A program made the position numbers and the translations under genes. A stretch of 64,000 nucleotides of DNA, taken from the NCBI RefSeq assembly GCF_036347135.1, contig NZ_CP108938.1, forward strand, positions 186,001 to 250,000, in the 5' to 3' direction. This DNA is from Streptomyces sp. NBC_00775. GTDB lineage: Bacteria > Actinomycetota > Actinomycetes > Streptomycetales > Streptomycetaceae. Of this stretch, positions 3,617 through 31,749 are shown in pieces. The stretch's first letter is position 1. The number at the start of each line of letters is the position of its first letter. The notes below the pieces were generated by a model. That model worked only from the letters and a program-made list of their open reading frames with translations, was not told the origin of the DNA and made no database searches.

Positions 3617-4046
<430 letters not shown>

Positions 4047-4115
4047 CTGAACTTGATTGGTGATGTCGGGTCATCGGCCTGACAGTTGAGGGTCGGGTTC
4101 GGTAGGTCTGTGTGG

Positions 4116-5179
4116 GTGAGGTACGCGCAGGGCGGCGGGCTGACCGACGCCGGGAGGGCCGCGCGGGAGCGCATTCGGCTTCAGGCCGTGGACCGCTTCG
4201 AGCGCGGGGAGAGGAACAAGGAGTCGCCGCCGCGTTACGGGTGTCGGAGCGGTCAGTGGAGCGCTGGCGGAAGTCCTGGCGGGAGCGGGGCGCGGGCGGG
4301 ATCCTGTCGAAGGGGTCACCGGGCCGACCCCCGAGGCTGGGGCTGGCCCAGTTGGAGCGTCTGGAGCGGGAGCTGGAGCGTGGCCCGCTCGCGCTTGGCT
4401 GGCCGGATCAGCGGTGGACGCTGCGAGGATCGGGACGCTGATCGGCAGGCTGTTTCGCGTCTCGTACACGGTCGAGGACACGTGGCTGCTGCTGAAGCGG
4501 CACGGCTGGTCCTGGCAGCAGCCGTGCCGGCGGGCGATCGAGCGAGACGACGAGGCGGTCGAGCTGTGGAAGAAGGAGGTCTAACCCCGGGTAAAAGAGA
4601 GGCCGCGGCCCGGGGTACGTGGATCGCCTTCGAGGATGAGGCCGGGCAGTCGATGACGCCGCCGAGGGCCAGGACCTGGGGCCGGGTCGGCCGCACGCCG
4701 GTGGTCAGGGTCCGCGGCCGGGGATCCGGCCGTCTGTCCATGGTGGGCATGTGCTGCTTCGAGCCCGGCTCCAGGTCGCGGCTGATCTATGGGCTGCGGG
4801 AGTACCGGGCCGCAAGGACGAGCCGAAGGGCTTCGGATGGAAGGACTTCTGCCGCCTGCTCGTCCTGGCCCGGATCCAGCTGGGCGGGCCGATCGTCCTG
4901 GTCTGGGACAACGTCCGCCTGCACCTCACCTACGGCGTGCGAGAGTTCATCGAGAAGAACGCCGACTGGCTGACCGTCTTCCAGCTGCCCACCTACGCAC
5001 CCGACCTCAAACCCCAGGAGGGCATCTGGTCACTGGTCAAGCGCGAGCTCGGCAACATCGCGGCCGCCGACCTCTCCCAGATCACCCGAGCCGTCAAACG
5101 CAAGCTCAAGCAGATCCAGTACCACCCCGACCTGGTCGACGGCTGCCTCGCCGGCACCGGCCTGACCATCAACGCCTGA
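4116..5179 (+). pseudogene. IS630-family transposase, frameshifted
   Basis: The protein can be followed through several frames. It starts with an N-terminal HTH ('VAAALRVSERSVERWRKSWR'), then a winged-helix linker ('IGRLFRVSYTVEDTWLLLKR'). The DDE domain has first Asp in 'WIAFEDEAGQSMTPP', second Asp in 'LVWDNVRLHL' and the Glu in 'APDLKPQEGIWSLVKREL'. Reading needs at least four frame changes, and there is a stop at 4581 after 'LWKKEV'. The gene is therefore inactivated, and the unit could now move only with transposase from elsewhere. The family's usual length is about 350 residues, which the reconstructed product would reach. Confidence 0.85.
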
Positions 5180-5180
5180 C

Positions 5181-5206
5181 CGACATCACGAATTCAAGAT
5201 TCAGTA
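5181..5206. repeat. Internal IS630 right end (alternative terminus)
   Basis: CGACATCACG..TTCAAGATTCAG followed by TA resembles, in inverse, the left end at 4047 and matches the outer right end at 6243-6267. It marks the probable end of the original IS (4047-5204) before it captured the downstream gene. Confidence 0.75.
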
Positions 5207-5289
5207 GTACTCCGTCGCGCCCGCATCGCGTCCTGAGCGCGAGCAGAAACCGGTGGCCCCGCACGACGGCGGCCGTGCACACTGGCTTG

Positions 5290-6204
5290 GTGATCAAGTC
5301 GCAACCGCCTGCCGCTGCCCTCACCTGGGCGGCCGAAATCGCTGGCCCCAATGCCTCCGTGCGCACCGTACAGCGACTGGTCGGCGGCACTCACGCCGCC
5401 ACTCATCTGTTGGAAACCGTGGACCCGGCGGGGGAGATGGTCCTGCGTCGCTTTCCGCCTGGTGACCGCGCTGCCGCTCGGGAAGCACGCGTATTGGCGG
5501 CGCTTGACGGACTGGGTGGCTGGGCTCCTCGGCTTCTGGGCGCCGACCCCGACGGAGAGCGCTTCAGCGAACCTGCAACCTTGATCACCCGTCTCTCCGG
5601 CCGCTCGGACATCACATCAGCATCCCCCGACGTGGCAGCGGTCCAACTGGGGCGCACCCTGGCCCGTCTCCACGATGTCCCGCTCGCTGAGCTCACCGGA
5701 TTGCGCGACGGAATGGAAGCCGCAACGGTCTCGTCCGCCTGTGCCAGTGCCGCCGCTCCCGCCTCAACGATCCTGGCGTCCCATGGTCATCGTCTCGCCG
5801 AAGAAGCGCCGGTCCTGACTCATTACGACTACTGGTCGGGCAACGTCCTGTGGCAGGAGGACGAACTCACCGGCATCGTCGACTGGTCAGGGGCATCGTT
5901 GGCACCGCGCGGCTTCGACGTGAGCTGGTGTCGACTCGACCTCGCCCTGCTGCACGGCCCGGTCACAGCTGAGACATTCCTGGCCGCGTACGAGGAGACT
6001 GCCGGCCAGGCAGTGCCCGCTATGGCGCTGTGGGACTTGTTCGCCCTCACCAACTCGCACCACTCTGTGGAGACTTGGCTCCCGAACTACCACGATCTCG
6101 GTCGCACCGACCTGACTGCGGCTGAGCTCCGCAGGCGCCATGCCGCGTGGACCGACGATCGCCTCGCGGACTACCACTCTCGCCCGTCTTCCAAGCGGAT
6201 CTGA
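5290..6204 (+). CDS. Aminoglycoside phosphotransferase (APH)-like kinase, cargo of the IS630 unit
   Basis: Intact kinase-fold protein of about 304 residues. The catalytic loop is 'VLTHYDYWSGNVLW' (HxDxxxxN: His and Asp with the Mg-binding Asn). The second metal site is 'TGIVDWSGASLAPRGFDVSW' (IVDW). A nucleotide-binding N-lobe ('VQRLVGGTHAATHLL', 'MVLRRFPPGDRAAAREARVL') precedes. The family phosphorylates small hydroxylated compounds such as aminoglycosides, homoserine or choline; the substrate here is unknown. The GTG at 5290 is the chosen start, with a TTG just before as alternative. The longer open frame upstream is transposase shadow. It lies between the internal and outer IS ends, so it is a mobile passenger and a possible resistance gene. 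Confidence 0.8.
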   Translation: MIKSQPPAAALTWAAEIAGPNASVRTVQRLVGGTHAATHLLETVDPAGEMVLRRFPPGDRAAAREARVLAALDGLGGWAPRLLGADPDGERFSEPATLITRLSGRSDITSASPDVAAVQLGRTLARLHDVPLAELTGLRDGMEAATVSSACASAAAPASTILASHGHRLAEEAPVLTHYDYWSGNVLWQEDELTGIVDWSGASLAPRGFDVSWCRLDLALLHGPVTAETFLAAYEETAGQAVPAMALWDLFALTNSHHSVETWLPNYHDLGRTDLTAAELRRRHAAWTDDRLADYHSRPSSKRI

Positions 6205-6267
6205 GAGCGGCACTCCCCGACCCAAGCACTCAACCGCACGGGCCCGACATCACGCATTCAATTTCAG

Positions 6268-6630
6268 TACCCGCCACCGTGCTCACCGGTGGGCAACCCA
6301 TGTCAACTTCCCTTCGGGGCATCGGCCTTCGGCGCGACAACCGTCCTCAGACACACCTCAGAACGGCCGCTTCATACGGTCTACAAGGGGATCAGGCCGC
6401 AAACCCGACGTTGGTCACATACTCGTACTCGCCCCACTGAGAGCCCAAGTCGACCACCACATCATTGACCCAGGCATCATCGAGCGCTTCGTCGTCGTCC
6501 TCGACCCAGGCCTGCACAATGCGGTCCCAGTGACGGACATTGAGCGTGCGGTACTCGATCACCCGCTGACGCGGCCTCGGAACCCGGGACTGGTTCAGCG
6601 GATGGAACTCCACACAGGTGCCACGGCCCT
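6268..6630. repeat. Dispersed repeat copy A, middle segment
   Basis: Nearly identical to 31183-31546 of copy B. It begins at the TA of the IS630 insertion and ends with the 11-base GCCACGGCCCT (6620-6630) that recurs at 11051-11061 across the IS21 insertion. Confidence 0.9.
6392..6619 (-). pseudogene. C-terminal half of repeat-borne HTH protein, interrupted by IS21
   Basis: Reverse-strand translation matches the last ~75 residues of the intact gene at 31307-31882 ('EFHPLNQSRVPRPRQRVIEY', 'AWVNDVVVDLGSQWGEYEY'). The N-terminal half lies 4.4 kb away at 11051-11265. The break coincides with the 11-bp direct repeats of the IS21 element. Confidence 0.85.
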
Positions 6631-21642: not shown

Positions 21643-24600
21643 TCAGGTACCGGCGGGTGGCAGTGCCGGTGCTTTTGTCTTTGCTGGTGAGGACTGGCTC
21701 CGAGGACGTGGCTCGAAGGTGATGGACCCTTCCGGAAAGCACTCGGCACCGACAACGGTACTTACCCCGCACAGGCGGATCGTGAGGTTCGGCATTCCGT
21801 GCAGAGGGGTGAGGTCGATGCGTGTGTTCTTGTCCGGTGGGCCCAGTGTCAGGCTTTGAAGGCCGGGCAGCGCGGAGCGGACGATGCTCAGGTCACCGTC
21901 TTCTCCCGTCCAGTCACTCTTGTTGGCCATGAAGAATGACTTTATTTGTGGGGCGGGGGGCATACGCAAGAGCATGGAGAGGTTGGCCTCTTTCTGGAGC
22001 ATGAGAGTTTTCAGCGCCGGCAGGGTCGCCACTTCGGAGAAACCGTCAACGAGGCCGGTCAAGTTCAACACCGCAAGCTGATCCCAGCGTCCTATGCCGC
22101 GCAGAGTGAGATTTTTGCACGCCTCGAATGTGAGCATCAGGGTCTTCAGAGTTGAGTTTATTTCGAGCTGCCCTAAATCACGGATCGGCAGTTCCATACC
22201 CAATCCTAAATAGCCGACTCCAGCCAGTTTGGCTAGGTGCTCGACACACCTGGGGGAACCGTCGAAAACGAAGAGTGTCTGAATGGGTAGCTCGGTGATG
22301 CCTGCCAGGTCTGCAACTCTTGGACAGTCGTACAGGTTGAGCTCCGTGAGGGAAGTAAAAGACCGAAGAAAGTCCAGGTTCTCCAGACTTTTATTGTTCG
22401 AGATGGTCAGCGAGGATATTTCCTGCGGGGCGAAGGAAGTGGTCATGATATTCCCATGAAAGGTTTCCCGGCATTTTGCTCGACCTGGAATTTTCATGCG
22501 GTGGAATGTGGCCAACTGCTCGGGATTTTCTATTAGCACATTTGAGAGGTTAGGTGTTTGGGAAAGGATTTCACGGGCATAGTCGTCCGTGTCGAAGCGG
22601 CTCCACGAGTTCTCTATTGTCCATCGAACACTGTCAAGAGTGCAGTTGCGGAATCTCTTCATGACGGACAGGGCGGCGTCGCCGCCAACATTCCTAGCCG
22701 TTTGGACGACGGCCAAGGCCTCGTCGTCTTCGAGTCCGTCAGGACCGGGCAGTAGATCGAGGATGATCGGGCCCACGGCTGCCAATGCCTGGGCCTCCTC
22801 GGCACTGCGCGGTGGCAGAAGTTCGGCAGTACGGTTCCGAACCTCCTGGCGTACCTGCGGATCGATCTCCGTGGCGTATTCGAGACAGGCCGTGGCGAGC
22901 AGGTGAAGACGGCTGCGGTGTTTGAGCGTTCGGTCGCCACGGTTGACGAGTCGACGCAGAAGCGTGGCTCGTTCGGCAGGGCGGGCGTGTGCCACGGCCA
23001 TGCGCAGCACGTCTTCCCACTGGTCGTCATGGGCGTTGCGGACCAGGAGGGGAATGTCGCGGGCTTCGATGGCAGCCTTGGCTCCCAGGTAGTCCTGGAA
23101 GGTCCGGTGGACGAAATCGATGGTGTCCACCGTAGGAGTGCGCAGCAGGCCGCTGCGGGCGATGAGATGGGCGAGAACCTGGGCGGCGTCGGCCTGATGG
23201 GCAATGTCGGGCATGGCGGGGAGGGCCTCGTCGATGAGGGCCCGGGCTGTGTCGTGGTCGAGTTCGGTCTGGCCGTTTCGGATCAGCCAGTAGGCCAGAC
23301 GCTGGAGGACTTGGACGCTCTGGCGTTCGGTCAGGACGAGGCCTTCGGTGGCGCCGATGCCACGTTCACGGTCTCGGCGGTGCAGCAACATCGACAGGGC
23401 AGCCTCGTACAACTCCATGCGTCCGTGCGGCAGTTGGCCACGCCGGTCACGATGTAGGGCGCAGACCAGGGCGCACAGCAGCGGGGTCGTGGTCAGGCGG
23501 GACAGGTCGGGCTGGGAACGCACCGTGTCCTTCAGTGCCTCTTCCAGCGCAGCCAGGCCCGCGCGTTCCTCAACGGCGGGGGTCCCCGCAGCAGCCGCCT
23601 TGTACCAGCGGGTGACGAACACCGTTGCATCCCGGTTGCTCATCGACCGTACCGTCAGTTCGGTGAAGCCACTATCGGTCAACCATCCCTCAGGTACCGC
23701 GGATGGCCGGGTCGTGACCAGGTAGGCGGCCCGCGGGTAGGCCGCGAGTAGATCGTGCAACCACTGTCGGGTTTGCTCGCGTTGCGCCTGCGGGACCTCG
23801 TCCAGGCCGTCCACGAGTATCAGGCCCCGGCCGTCGAGGAGGACACGGTCGACCCAGCCCGGCGGCTGGGAGCCCGCGCGGGGGCAGCCGACGGAGGCCA
23901 AATACTGATCAGGGACGGGAAGTTCGCGGCGCCGTACCAAACTCCGCAACGGCAGGACGAATGGTAGACAGTCCGCCAGATGCGACAGTTCGGGCGGCAG
24001 CCTTCGGCGGGCGGTGGCGACCGCGAGCCACTGCAACAAAGTGGTCTTGCCGCTGCCGGCCAGTCCTCGTACGAGGATCCGCTGACGTCCAGCCAGGGCT
24101 TGCTCGGCACGCTCCACTCGAATCTCCGCGCCGCTGTCCGAGCTCATGCGTACGTCCGCTCTCATCGAGCCGACAAGCACATCAGCGCCCATCTCCCCTT
24201 GGTGCCCTGCCGGTACTAAGCCCCACATGGGTGTGGTGAACTCAAGACTGAGATAGGCGGCATCCATGGGCCAGGACGCACGGTCCGGCCGGGACAGATC
24301 AAGCCCGATCACCGACAACGTCCCGTATTGACGCTCCACATACTGCCGGTACCAGCTCTCGAACACCTGGTGCGTGGCTGGCCCGGCGTCCGCTGTGCCT
24401 CCCACCGTCAAGGCAGGTGCCGTAGGGGGCAGGGCACGGGCGCGCAGGCGTAGCAGCGGAGCGGGGTCGGTTCCCACCGCTGCGGCGAGCGCCACCACTG
24501 TCACCTCGCTGGGCACACTCGTTCCGTTCAGCGCCTGGCTGACCGTGGTGCGGCTCAGACCGGCCCGGATGGGTAGCGAGGTCATCGACAACCGCTGTTG

Positions 24601-24669
24601 GACCCGAAGGCTCCGCAGCCGCTCCTTCAGTTCCGCCAATGCCTCCTGCTGGCGCTTACTCGTCTCCAC
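21643..24669 (-). CDS. HTH-NACHT-leucine-rich-repeat protein (NLR-like, candidate anti-phage defence)
   Basis: Large signal-transduction NTPase of 1008 residues. Residues ~10-75: XRE-type HTH ('SLPIRAGLSRTTVSQALNGT'). ~100-165: linker with the Tyr-rich segment seen before many NACHT domains. ~198-500: NACHT domain with Walker A 'VRGLAGSGKTTLLQWLA' and the NACHT-type Walker B 'RGLILVDGLDEVPQA' (acidic pair after hhhD). ~500-720: helical region. ~740-960: leucine-rich-repeat-like sensor ('ISSLTISNNKSLENLDFL', 'LTELNLYDCPRVADLAGI', 'LAVLNLTGLVDGFSEV'). GTG 24669 follows GGAGGG. The repeat region is visibly richer in A/T than the NTPase. This architecture is that of bacterial NLR proteins that sense phage and trigger cell death; the HTH in place of a nuclease effector is unusual. 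The defence role is inference. Confidence 0.88.
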   Translation of the reverse strand: METSKRQQEALAELKERLRSLRVQQRLSMTSLPIRAGLSRTTVSQALNGTSVPSEVTVVALAAAVGTDPAPLLRLRARALPPTAPALTVGGTADAGPATHQVFESWYRQYVERQYGTLSVIGLDLSRPDRASWPMDAAYLSLEFTTPMWGLVPAGHQGEMGADVLVGSMRADVRMSSDSGAEIRVERAEQALAGRQRILVRGLAGSGKTTLLQWLAVATARRRLPPELSHLADCLPFVLPLRSLVRRRELPVPDQYLASVGCPRAGSQPPGWVDRVLLDGRGLILVDGLDEVPQAQREQTRQWLHDLLAAYPRAAYLVTTRPSAVPEGWLTDSGFTELTVRSMSNRDATVFVTRWYKAAAAGTPAVEERAGLAALEEALKDTVRSQPDLSRLTTTPLLCALVCALHRDRRGQLPHGRMELYEAALSMLLHRRDRERGIGATEGLVLTERQSVQVLQRLAYWLIRNGQTELDHDTARALIDEALPAMPDIAHQADAAQVLAHLIARSGLLRTPTVDTIDFVHRTFQDYLGAKAAIEARDIPLLVRNAHDDQWEDVLRMAVAHARPAERATLLRRLVNRGDRTLKHRSRLHLLATACLEYATEIDPQVRQEVRNRTAELLPPRSAEEAQALAAVGPIILDLLPGPDGLEDDEALAVVQTARNVGGDAALSVMKRFRNCTLDSVRWTIENSWSRFDTDDYAREILSQTPNLSNVLIENPEQLATFHRMKIPGRAKCRETFHGNIMTTSFAPQEISSLTISNNKSLENLDFLRSFTSLTELNLYDCPRVADLAGITELPIQTLFVFDGSPRCVEHLAKLAGVGYLGLGMELPIRDLGQLEINSTLKTLMLTFEACKNLTLRGIGRWDQLAVLNLTGLVDGFSEVATLPALKTLMLQKEANLSMLLRMPPAPQIKSFFMANKSDWTGEDGDLSIVRSALPGLQSLTLGPPDKNTRIDLTPLHGMPNLTIRLCGVSTVVGAECFPEGSITFEPRPRSQSSPAKTKAPALPPAGT

Positions 24670-30893: not shown

Positions 30894-31749
30894 AATCACC
30901 CCAGGCCAAGACGCCACGATCAACCGACTTTCGACGACACCGGCCAGCCGCCCAGCACATGACGCGACGACAATCCGACAGCTTCAAAGCGACAGAACAG
31001 TCCTGCCCTCAACAGCACGCTGCTCCCTCCGACACGCCGACGGGAGGACACCCGAGGCCGTGATATGTAGGCGTTTTTGTCAAGTGGGCAGGAGCGTATG
31101 GGCTCGTCGGTGCGGGCGTGGACATCCAGACCGACCGAAGTACGCTCGGAGAACATCCGGTGCCTCCCGGTAATTGCGGCACTACCCGCCACCGTGTTCA
31201 CCGGTGGGCAACCCGTGTCAACTTCCCCTCGGGGCATCGGCCTTCGGCGCGGCAACCGTCCTCAGACACACCTCAGAACGGCCGCTTCATACGGTCTACA
31301 AGGGGATCAGGCCGCGAACCCGACGTTGGTCACATACTCGTACTCGCCCCACTGAGAGCCCAAGTCGACCACCACATCATTGACCCAGGCATCATCGAGC
31401 GCTTCGTCGTCGTCCTCGACCCAGGCCTGCACAATGCGGTCCCAGTGACGGACATTGAGCGTGCGGTACTCGATCACCCGCTGACGCGGCCTCGGAACCC
31501 GGGACTGGTTCAGCGGATGGAACTCCACACGTGTGCCACGGCCCTCACGATTGAGACGCGCAAGCAAGTACCGGGCCACATTGTGGCGCCGCACAGTACG
31601 GTACGCGGCCTCGATCCTGTCGAGGTTCTCCCCCGACGGACTCCGCCTGCCATCCAGCCACGCCCTGACCGTGCGATCCGTGACGGTCAGACCCGCATCC
31701 CGGGCAGCAGCGCGGGCGTGATCGCTGCGCGTGAGGTAGTGCAACCGGG
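30894..31749. repeat. Dispersed repeat copy B (uninterrupted)
   Basis: Matches copy A, which is split into 3617-4046, 6268-6630 and 11051-11265. This copy keeps the empty IS630 site (TA at 31183-31184) and the single GCCACGGCCCT at 31536-31546. It includes most of the HTH gene 31307-31882. Confidence 0.88.

Follow-up and report, generated by a model that had tools for sequence, protein, structure and literature searches.

A phosphotransferase gene between two right ends of an IS630 element in Streptomyces, and cargo carriage among its relatives

Introduction

Transporter IS (tIS) were reportedly described with the IS1595 family by Siguier, Gagnevin and Chandler in 2009. They are a known kind of element (PMC9330008, PMC3129680, PMC5009743), defined in the first two of these sources by passenger genes that lie between the ends of an IS and are unrelated to transposition. 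Plain IS630 elements have one or two ORFs and a length of about 1,250 bp according to an excerpt of PMC11092175, and frameshifting between ORFs is known in this family, as an excerpt of PMC5009743 states. A literature search combining IS630 or tIS with cargo, passenger or Streptomyces, its scope ending short of subscription journals and ISfinder, returned no paper on an IS630 element with cargo of the kind described here in the text portions it covers, among them passages of PMC7371123 and PMC11092175.

Here we analyse a unit in Streptomyces sp. NBC_00775, found in a stretch of 64,000 nucleotides (the window; all coordinates are window positions). Like a transporter IS, it holds inside its terminal repeats a passenger unrelated to transposition, an APH-fold kinase gene lying between an internal and an outer right end (RE1 and RE2). 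Unlike the IS1595 case, its clade has an IS630 transposase, at least 14 cargo families and an internal right end that survives in some members. With plain IS630 elements it shares a DDE_3 transposase in two overlapping ORFs, terminal repeats of about 24 bp and a TA target, but differs by the extra DNA between transposase and right end and by the target duplications of its relatives, which also include TT, AA, AT and CA. As in a composite transposon, a gene is mobilised between ends of related IS copies; here, however, there is one transposase copy and the second IS copy amounts at most to a right end of about 24 bp, which sets the unit apart from that class, and a composite transposon may have been the ancestor of the present form. 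The unit is best filed under a known type, the transporter IS, of which an IS630 version with a broad cargo clade is new here.

Results

Structure of the unit

The unit spans 2,221 bp (4047-6267) in the order left end, transposase, RE1, kinase gene and RE2, with TA on both outer sides (Table 1). Direct reading agrees within 1 base with the coordinates first proposed for the ends. A consensus right-end pattern, allowing up to 3 mismatches, had a single site in the 64-kb window (6244-6267; 0/100 shuffles), RE1 and the left end being missed because each carries a one-base length change. The unit is present in 1 copy in its 11.1-Mb genome, the 6 other matches being short or partial stretches of at most 83% identity. 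Within the unit the kinase gene is accompanied by its own upstream DNA, and its reading frame stays open far upstream of the gene. Elsewhere in the window, 21643-24669 on the minus strand encodes a 1008-aa protein with HTH and NACHT matches and a weak leucine-rich-repeat match.

Table 1. Features of the unit and of the related empty site (window positions).
Feature	Position	Strand	Basis
Left TA of the target duplication	4045..4046		Direct reading; one TA at the empty site
Left end (terminal inverted repeat) CTGAACTTGATTGGTGATGTCGGG	4047..4070	+	Agrees with left ends of relatives; TA precedes
Transposase orfA (helix-turn-helix part), in three frames	4116..4635	+	tblastn with Streptomyces sp. 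WAC00288 orfA; HTH matches
Transposase orfB (DDE_3 part), in two frames	4653..5179	+	tblastn; DDE_3 match; stop at 5179
Internal right end RE1 CCGACATCACGAATTCAAGATTCAG, terminus of the plain IS	5180..5204	+	Plain relatives L008, L009 and L028 terminate here
TA after RE1	5205..5206		Direct reading
Captured segment	5207..6242	+	Aligns from about 5220 on with homologous loci that lack these IS ends
APH-fold phosphotransferase gene, uninterrupted, 304 aa	5290..6204	+	Pfam APH 2e-26
Outer right end RE2 CCGACATCACGCATTCAATTTCAG	6244..6267	+	Direct reading; pattern scan; L040 has the identical boundary
Right TA of the target duplication	6268..6269		Direct reading; empty site
Single TA of the empty paralogous site	31183..31184		Flank-join alignment

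By its DDE_3 transposase with an N-terminal HTH the unit belongs to the IS630 family. The DDE_3 match (5.8e-13) lies above its cut-off, as does that of HTH_23 (25.7 bits against 24.6), and three other HTH matches lie below theirs; the gene is frameshifted, and its fragments score 37.7 and 60.1 with the NCBIfam IS630 transposase model (cut-off 100). Insertion at TA with TA duplication, a trait of the family, is also seen, with one TA in the empty paralogue and TA on both sides here. In a relative on plasmid p1 of Streptomyces sp. WAC00288, orfA and orfB overlap and together encode the transposase, and the tblastn comparison with them reveals the broken frames of the window copy. Since these ORFs are frameshifted, a full transposase is not expected from the window copy and present-day mobility is not implied. 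Both ORFs occupy a single frame each in 7 of 9 other elements tested (L008, L009, L028, L033, L074, L010 and L026), L072 and L077 being broken. In a transposase tree of 70 rows the window element and its plain sisters form one clade with support of 100/100.

Transposition as a unit

The original prediction described an insertion flanked by TA on either side, with the same DNA present uninterrupted around a single TA further along the window. We find that the two flanks, joined over one TA, align with 31052-31545 at 97.6% over 494 bp, ungapped through the junction, which bears this out. The left flank holds about 130 bp (about 3786-3913), with CCGACA repeats, that are missing from the paralogue near 31052; the paralogue is thus not a perfect pre-insertion allele, and the junction itself is clean.

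A second location was found in A. cocklensis (L040), one of 19 kinase-relative loci in a scan of contigs from 84,980 species. It matches 4576-6273 at 96.8%, comprising the 3' part of the transposase, RE1, kinase and RE2, and stops at RE2, with other DNA beyond. Most of orfA is gone, orfB is in one frame, and the left half consists of unrelated DNA in place of the element's own, fused in frame to the transposase remnant. Since L040 has no left end, only the right boundary is common to the two locations; of the 2.2-kb unit, RE1, kinase and RE2 recur here beside a different flank. Positions 6817-8184 of L040, an unrelated upstream coding sequence joined in frame to the transposase 3' part, form an open chimera of 455 aa. 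Searching 392 genomes of the genus with the kinase gave 3 matches at 1e-20 or better (own included), and the unit was not found beyond its own genome; 297 genomes of the family, partly the same as the 392, gave 13 at 1e-40 or better (own included), with the unit only in its own genome and in G446, whose alignment values are those of L040. The 4047-5204 core by itself, a plain element ending at RE1, does occur elsewhere, in two copies in G356 (89%) and in G050 (88%).

Some cargo-bearing relatives occupy two sites of one genome. L074 and L075 have cargo that is 100% identical, differing flanks and AT and CA duplications, and L033 and L072, with TT and TA duplications, share a 99.7% match that spans the element only. 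For the window unit, the empty site and the boundary shared with A. cocklensis agree with the proposal of an IS630 element with two right ends, the outer of which delimits a transposed kinase unit, and argue that this unit moved as one piece.

The kinase gene

Of 7,997 scored candidate proteins, 868 match the kinase at 1e-30 or better, and among the 120 matches listed nearly all named ones are called phosphotransferases or members of the aminoglycoside phosphotransferase family. The kinase scores 31.6 bits with the NCBIfam APH(3') model (cut-off 205), and no PDB relative was found at E 1e-3. The earlier suggestion of a potential resistance gene is therefore unsupported, the APH label reflecting only fold and automatic names, and the product is a generic APH-fold phosphotransferase. 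A phage origin was also rejected, with no match in 50,697 phage records. Only two short matches to the kinase segment (about 71-75%) were found on plasmids, and a defence library gave no match for 10 proteins, the window kinase and nine cargo or candidate-cargo proteins.

The window and L040 copies differ little, by 6 synonymous and 6 nonsynonymous changes. The G435 homologue aligns at 82.8% over 5220-6242, and comparison with it by simple counting gives a pS of 0.31 and a pN of 0.11, the mark of a maintained coding gene. Homologues in G435, G490 and S. smaragdinus align from shortly past RE1 to about the gene end, including part of the upstream region, and none has a right end in the DNA fetched (about 1.5 kb on each side for genome loci). 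Other relatives of the kinase likewise lack such IS ends in the surrounding DNA that was fetched, the one in A. cocklensis being the exception.

Cargo in related elements

We searched the 392 genus genomes with the DNA of the unit and hand-picked, among the matches listed, 68 relatives covering most of the core (29 loci, 20 regions and a further 19), leaving partial matches out. Of the 68, 48 make up the close group, with identities from about 72% upwards. In 28 of these 48, 0.4-1.1 kb of cargo lies between transposase and right end, with the left end present and matching 2-bp flanks of TA, TT, AA, AT or CA, and the premise that IS630 elements rarely carry passengers thus fails in this clade. 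Six are plain (L008, L009, L028, L071, L082 and L084; the left flank of L082 is TG, and L008 and L071 share one genome). The other 14 are imperfect or unclear; they include cargo elements with imperfect flanks (L013, L016) and composites of neighbouring copies (L030, L078). Ten of the 48 were left unclassified (L014, L022, L027, L032, L036, L083, L085, L087, L088 and L089), of which L087, 1.14 kb long with both ends and TA flanks, looks internally deleted and is possibly non-autonomous. Duplications other than TA (AT, CA, TT, AA) were noted among L074, L075, L018, L020, L024 and L033, and by eye a GCTAGC-like site is common to many relatives' insertions.

Among the 20 distant relatives (L090-L109), 14 are plain, one has a 296-aa open frame (L092), one is ambiguous (L096) and 4 are unclassified. 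By eye the L092 frame resembles an alpha/beta hydrolase; this element has 2,659 bp, near-perfect 24-bp repeats and TA flanks. The ratio of cargo to plain elements is 29:6 in the close group (L013 counted) against 1:14 in the distant one (Fisher's test, p = 5e-7, on relatives that are not independent). Eight of 136 matching plasmid records were fetched, giving 3 plain elements (L111, L117, L118), 4 with cargo (L112-L115) and one unclassified (L116). In the plasmid annotations examined, these elements appear only as transposase genes next to a protein that is unrelated and often hypothetical.

By blastp the cargo of 30 cargo-bearing close relatives falls into 12 families: SUKH-4 (6 loci), DUF5959 (5), four families with proteins of 137 aa (5), 120 aa (4), 180 aa (2) and 131 aa (2), and six singles, among them MDMPI and a methyltransferase, the domain names resting on one or two members per family. 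The count rises to at least 14 unrelated families with the window kinase and with a protein of 335 aa found on S. vietnamensis pSVL1 and on a S. globisporus plasmid. Public examples, each with TA flanks, are the SUKH-4 cargo in NZ_CP027023.1 and a maleylpyruvate-isomerase-family enzyme in NZ_CP108236.1.

Possible exchange of cassettes between elements

Cargo families are scattered over the transposase tree of 70 rows: SUKH-4, DUF5959 and the 120-aa family occupy three separate positions each, the 180-aa family occupies two, and one tight transposase clade unites the plain L028 with three different cargo states (L077, L026 and L078). An explanation that we regard as unlikely for the window unit is that the kinase and its right end were first the cargo of another element of the clade and were taken over by nesting or recombination. 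Exchange fits L078, whose 120-aa cassette and right end are those of an L025-type element (cassette 90%, transposase 79%), and the DUF5959 cassette of L026 and L033 (cassette 89%, transposase 81%). Against it, among 42 same-family pairs (near-duplicates L072 and L075 left out) cassette identity exceeds transposase identity in only 13 and falls below it in 29. Five pairs show a clear excess, of at least 8 points; they come from DUF5959 (L026 paired with L033 and with L079) and from the 120-aa family (L025, L073 and L078). Recent exchange is thus supported in those two families only, and a general rule of greater similarity among cassettes than among transposases was dropped. In the other families, older inheritance, loss or separate capture would explain the tree equally well. 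Moreover, neither the 48 relatives nor the close-relative scan of 84,980 species yielded an element with this kinase apart from L040, and neither a second left end nor a transposase remnant was seen at 5207-5290.

Internal and outer right ends

Right-end-like sites (up to 3 errors) were absent from 162,756 bp outside the elements and from 334,681 bp of 18 control loci. RE1, intact or as a relic, lies directly behind the transposase in the window element, L114, L030, L078 and L077 (scores 32-43, 0/300 shuffles each). None of the remaining cargo elements tested scores above 20; L020, which reaches 20 and likewise 0/300 shuffles, was taken as chance. In L078 and L030 the outer end is that of an adjacent, separate copy, so a two-ended arrangement need not be a mobile unit.

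We compared 38 outer ends with 200 shuffles each for a preceding stub of the transposase 3' end. Such a stub is clear in L077 and L016 (0/200 each), hinting at a second copy in the same orientation that was cut down to its right end. It is weaker in L112 (1/200) and L114 (9/200), a weak case because the unrelated L113 and L021 reach 5 and 7 of 200. L115, with cargo 73% like that of L016, has none (108/200). Most of the 38 have no stub. High scores in L031 and L035 arose only against L087, a member of the same subclade without a proper transposase end, and were dropped as circular. L030 terminates in an inverted left end (0/200), and scores for L074 and L075 (1/200 and 0/200) suggest the same of their outer ends. 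For the window RE2 neither a stub nor a left end rises above shuffles (189 and 159 of 200).

RE2 might accordingly never have belonged to a second IS copy; the transposase would then have accepted a sequence beyond the kinase gene that is cryptic or resembles a right end by chance. The lack of a transposase stub upstream of the outer end in both the window and L040 fits this, as does the G435 homologue, which aligns to just before RE2; a blastn match to G490 even extends to 6300. That match, however, is gapped and extends just as well into the target-site flank, where homology is impossible, and is for this reason taken as chance. The aligned homologues have no such sequence at this place, and RE2 is a near-consensus right end of 24 bp, whereas about 0.5 Mb of control DNA holds none. 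We judge a chance origin of RE2 to be improbable. Finally, a plain IS630 that landed next to a kinase gene already in place, with an independent solo end downstream, would account for the TA after RE1, but is very hard to reconcile with a paralogous site that has one TA and neither IS nor kinase, and with a kinase-RE2 boundary that is identical in A. cocklensis amid other flanking DNA.

Discussion

We consider it probable that the unit is a transporter IS, in which the IS630 transposase pairs the left end with the distal right end and so moves the gene between them. A plain IS630 element of about 1.16 kb, similar to those of G356 and G050, would have landed upstream of a chromosomal phosphotransferase gene that already had a related right end downstream. 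The transposition complex would then have bypassed RE1, and 2.2 kb would have moved as a single piece; after capture the internal right end may decay or disappear, as members of the clade suggest. The structure of the unit, its TA insertion, the second genomic location, the cargo in relatives and the RE1 relics can all be read from the DNA itself. The source of the outer end, for example a truncated second IS copy, and the preference for the outer over the inner end we infer; of the proposed cargo capture by an alternative terminus, the unit with two right ends therefore stands, and the choice between the ends is tentative.

On this reading the unit is a recent instance of something that has happened repeatedly, in a clade of IS630 elements from Streptomyces and kin that carries many genes in the same slot. 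We lean towards a wider reading, in which the Streptomyces IS630 clade is a general gene-carrying platform: the slot between transposase and right end would take single-gene cassettes, each with its own right end, gained via solo right ends of truncated copies and sometimes swapped between transposase lineages, the window unit having been caught soon after capture with both right ends intact. The meaning of the locus is therefore wider than first stated, extending to a cargo-carrying IS630 clade, and weaker for drug resistance.

These elements suggest that a very small IS can turn repeatedly into a one-gene transposon by a simple change of its right end. The graded series from plain elements through two right ends and a decayed internal end to cargo only offers a testbed for the origin of transporter IS. 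Small accessory genes, some of them immunity-like, probably also spread over Streptomyces chromosomes and plasmids by way of such elements.
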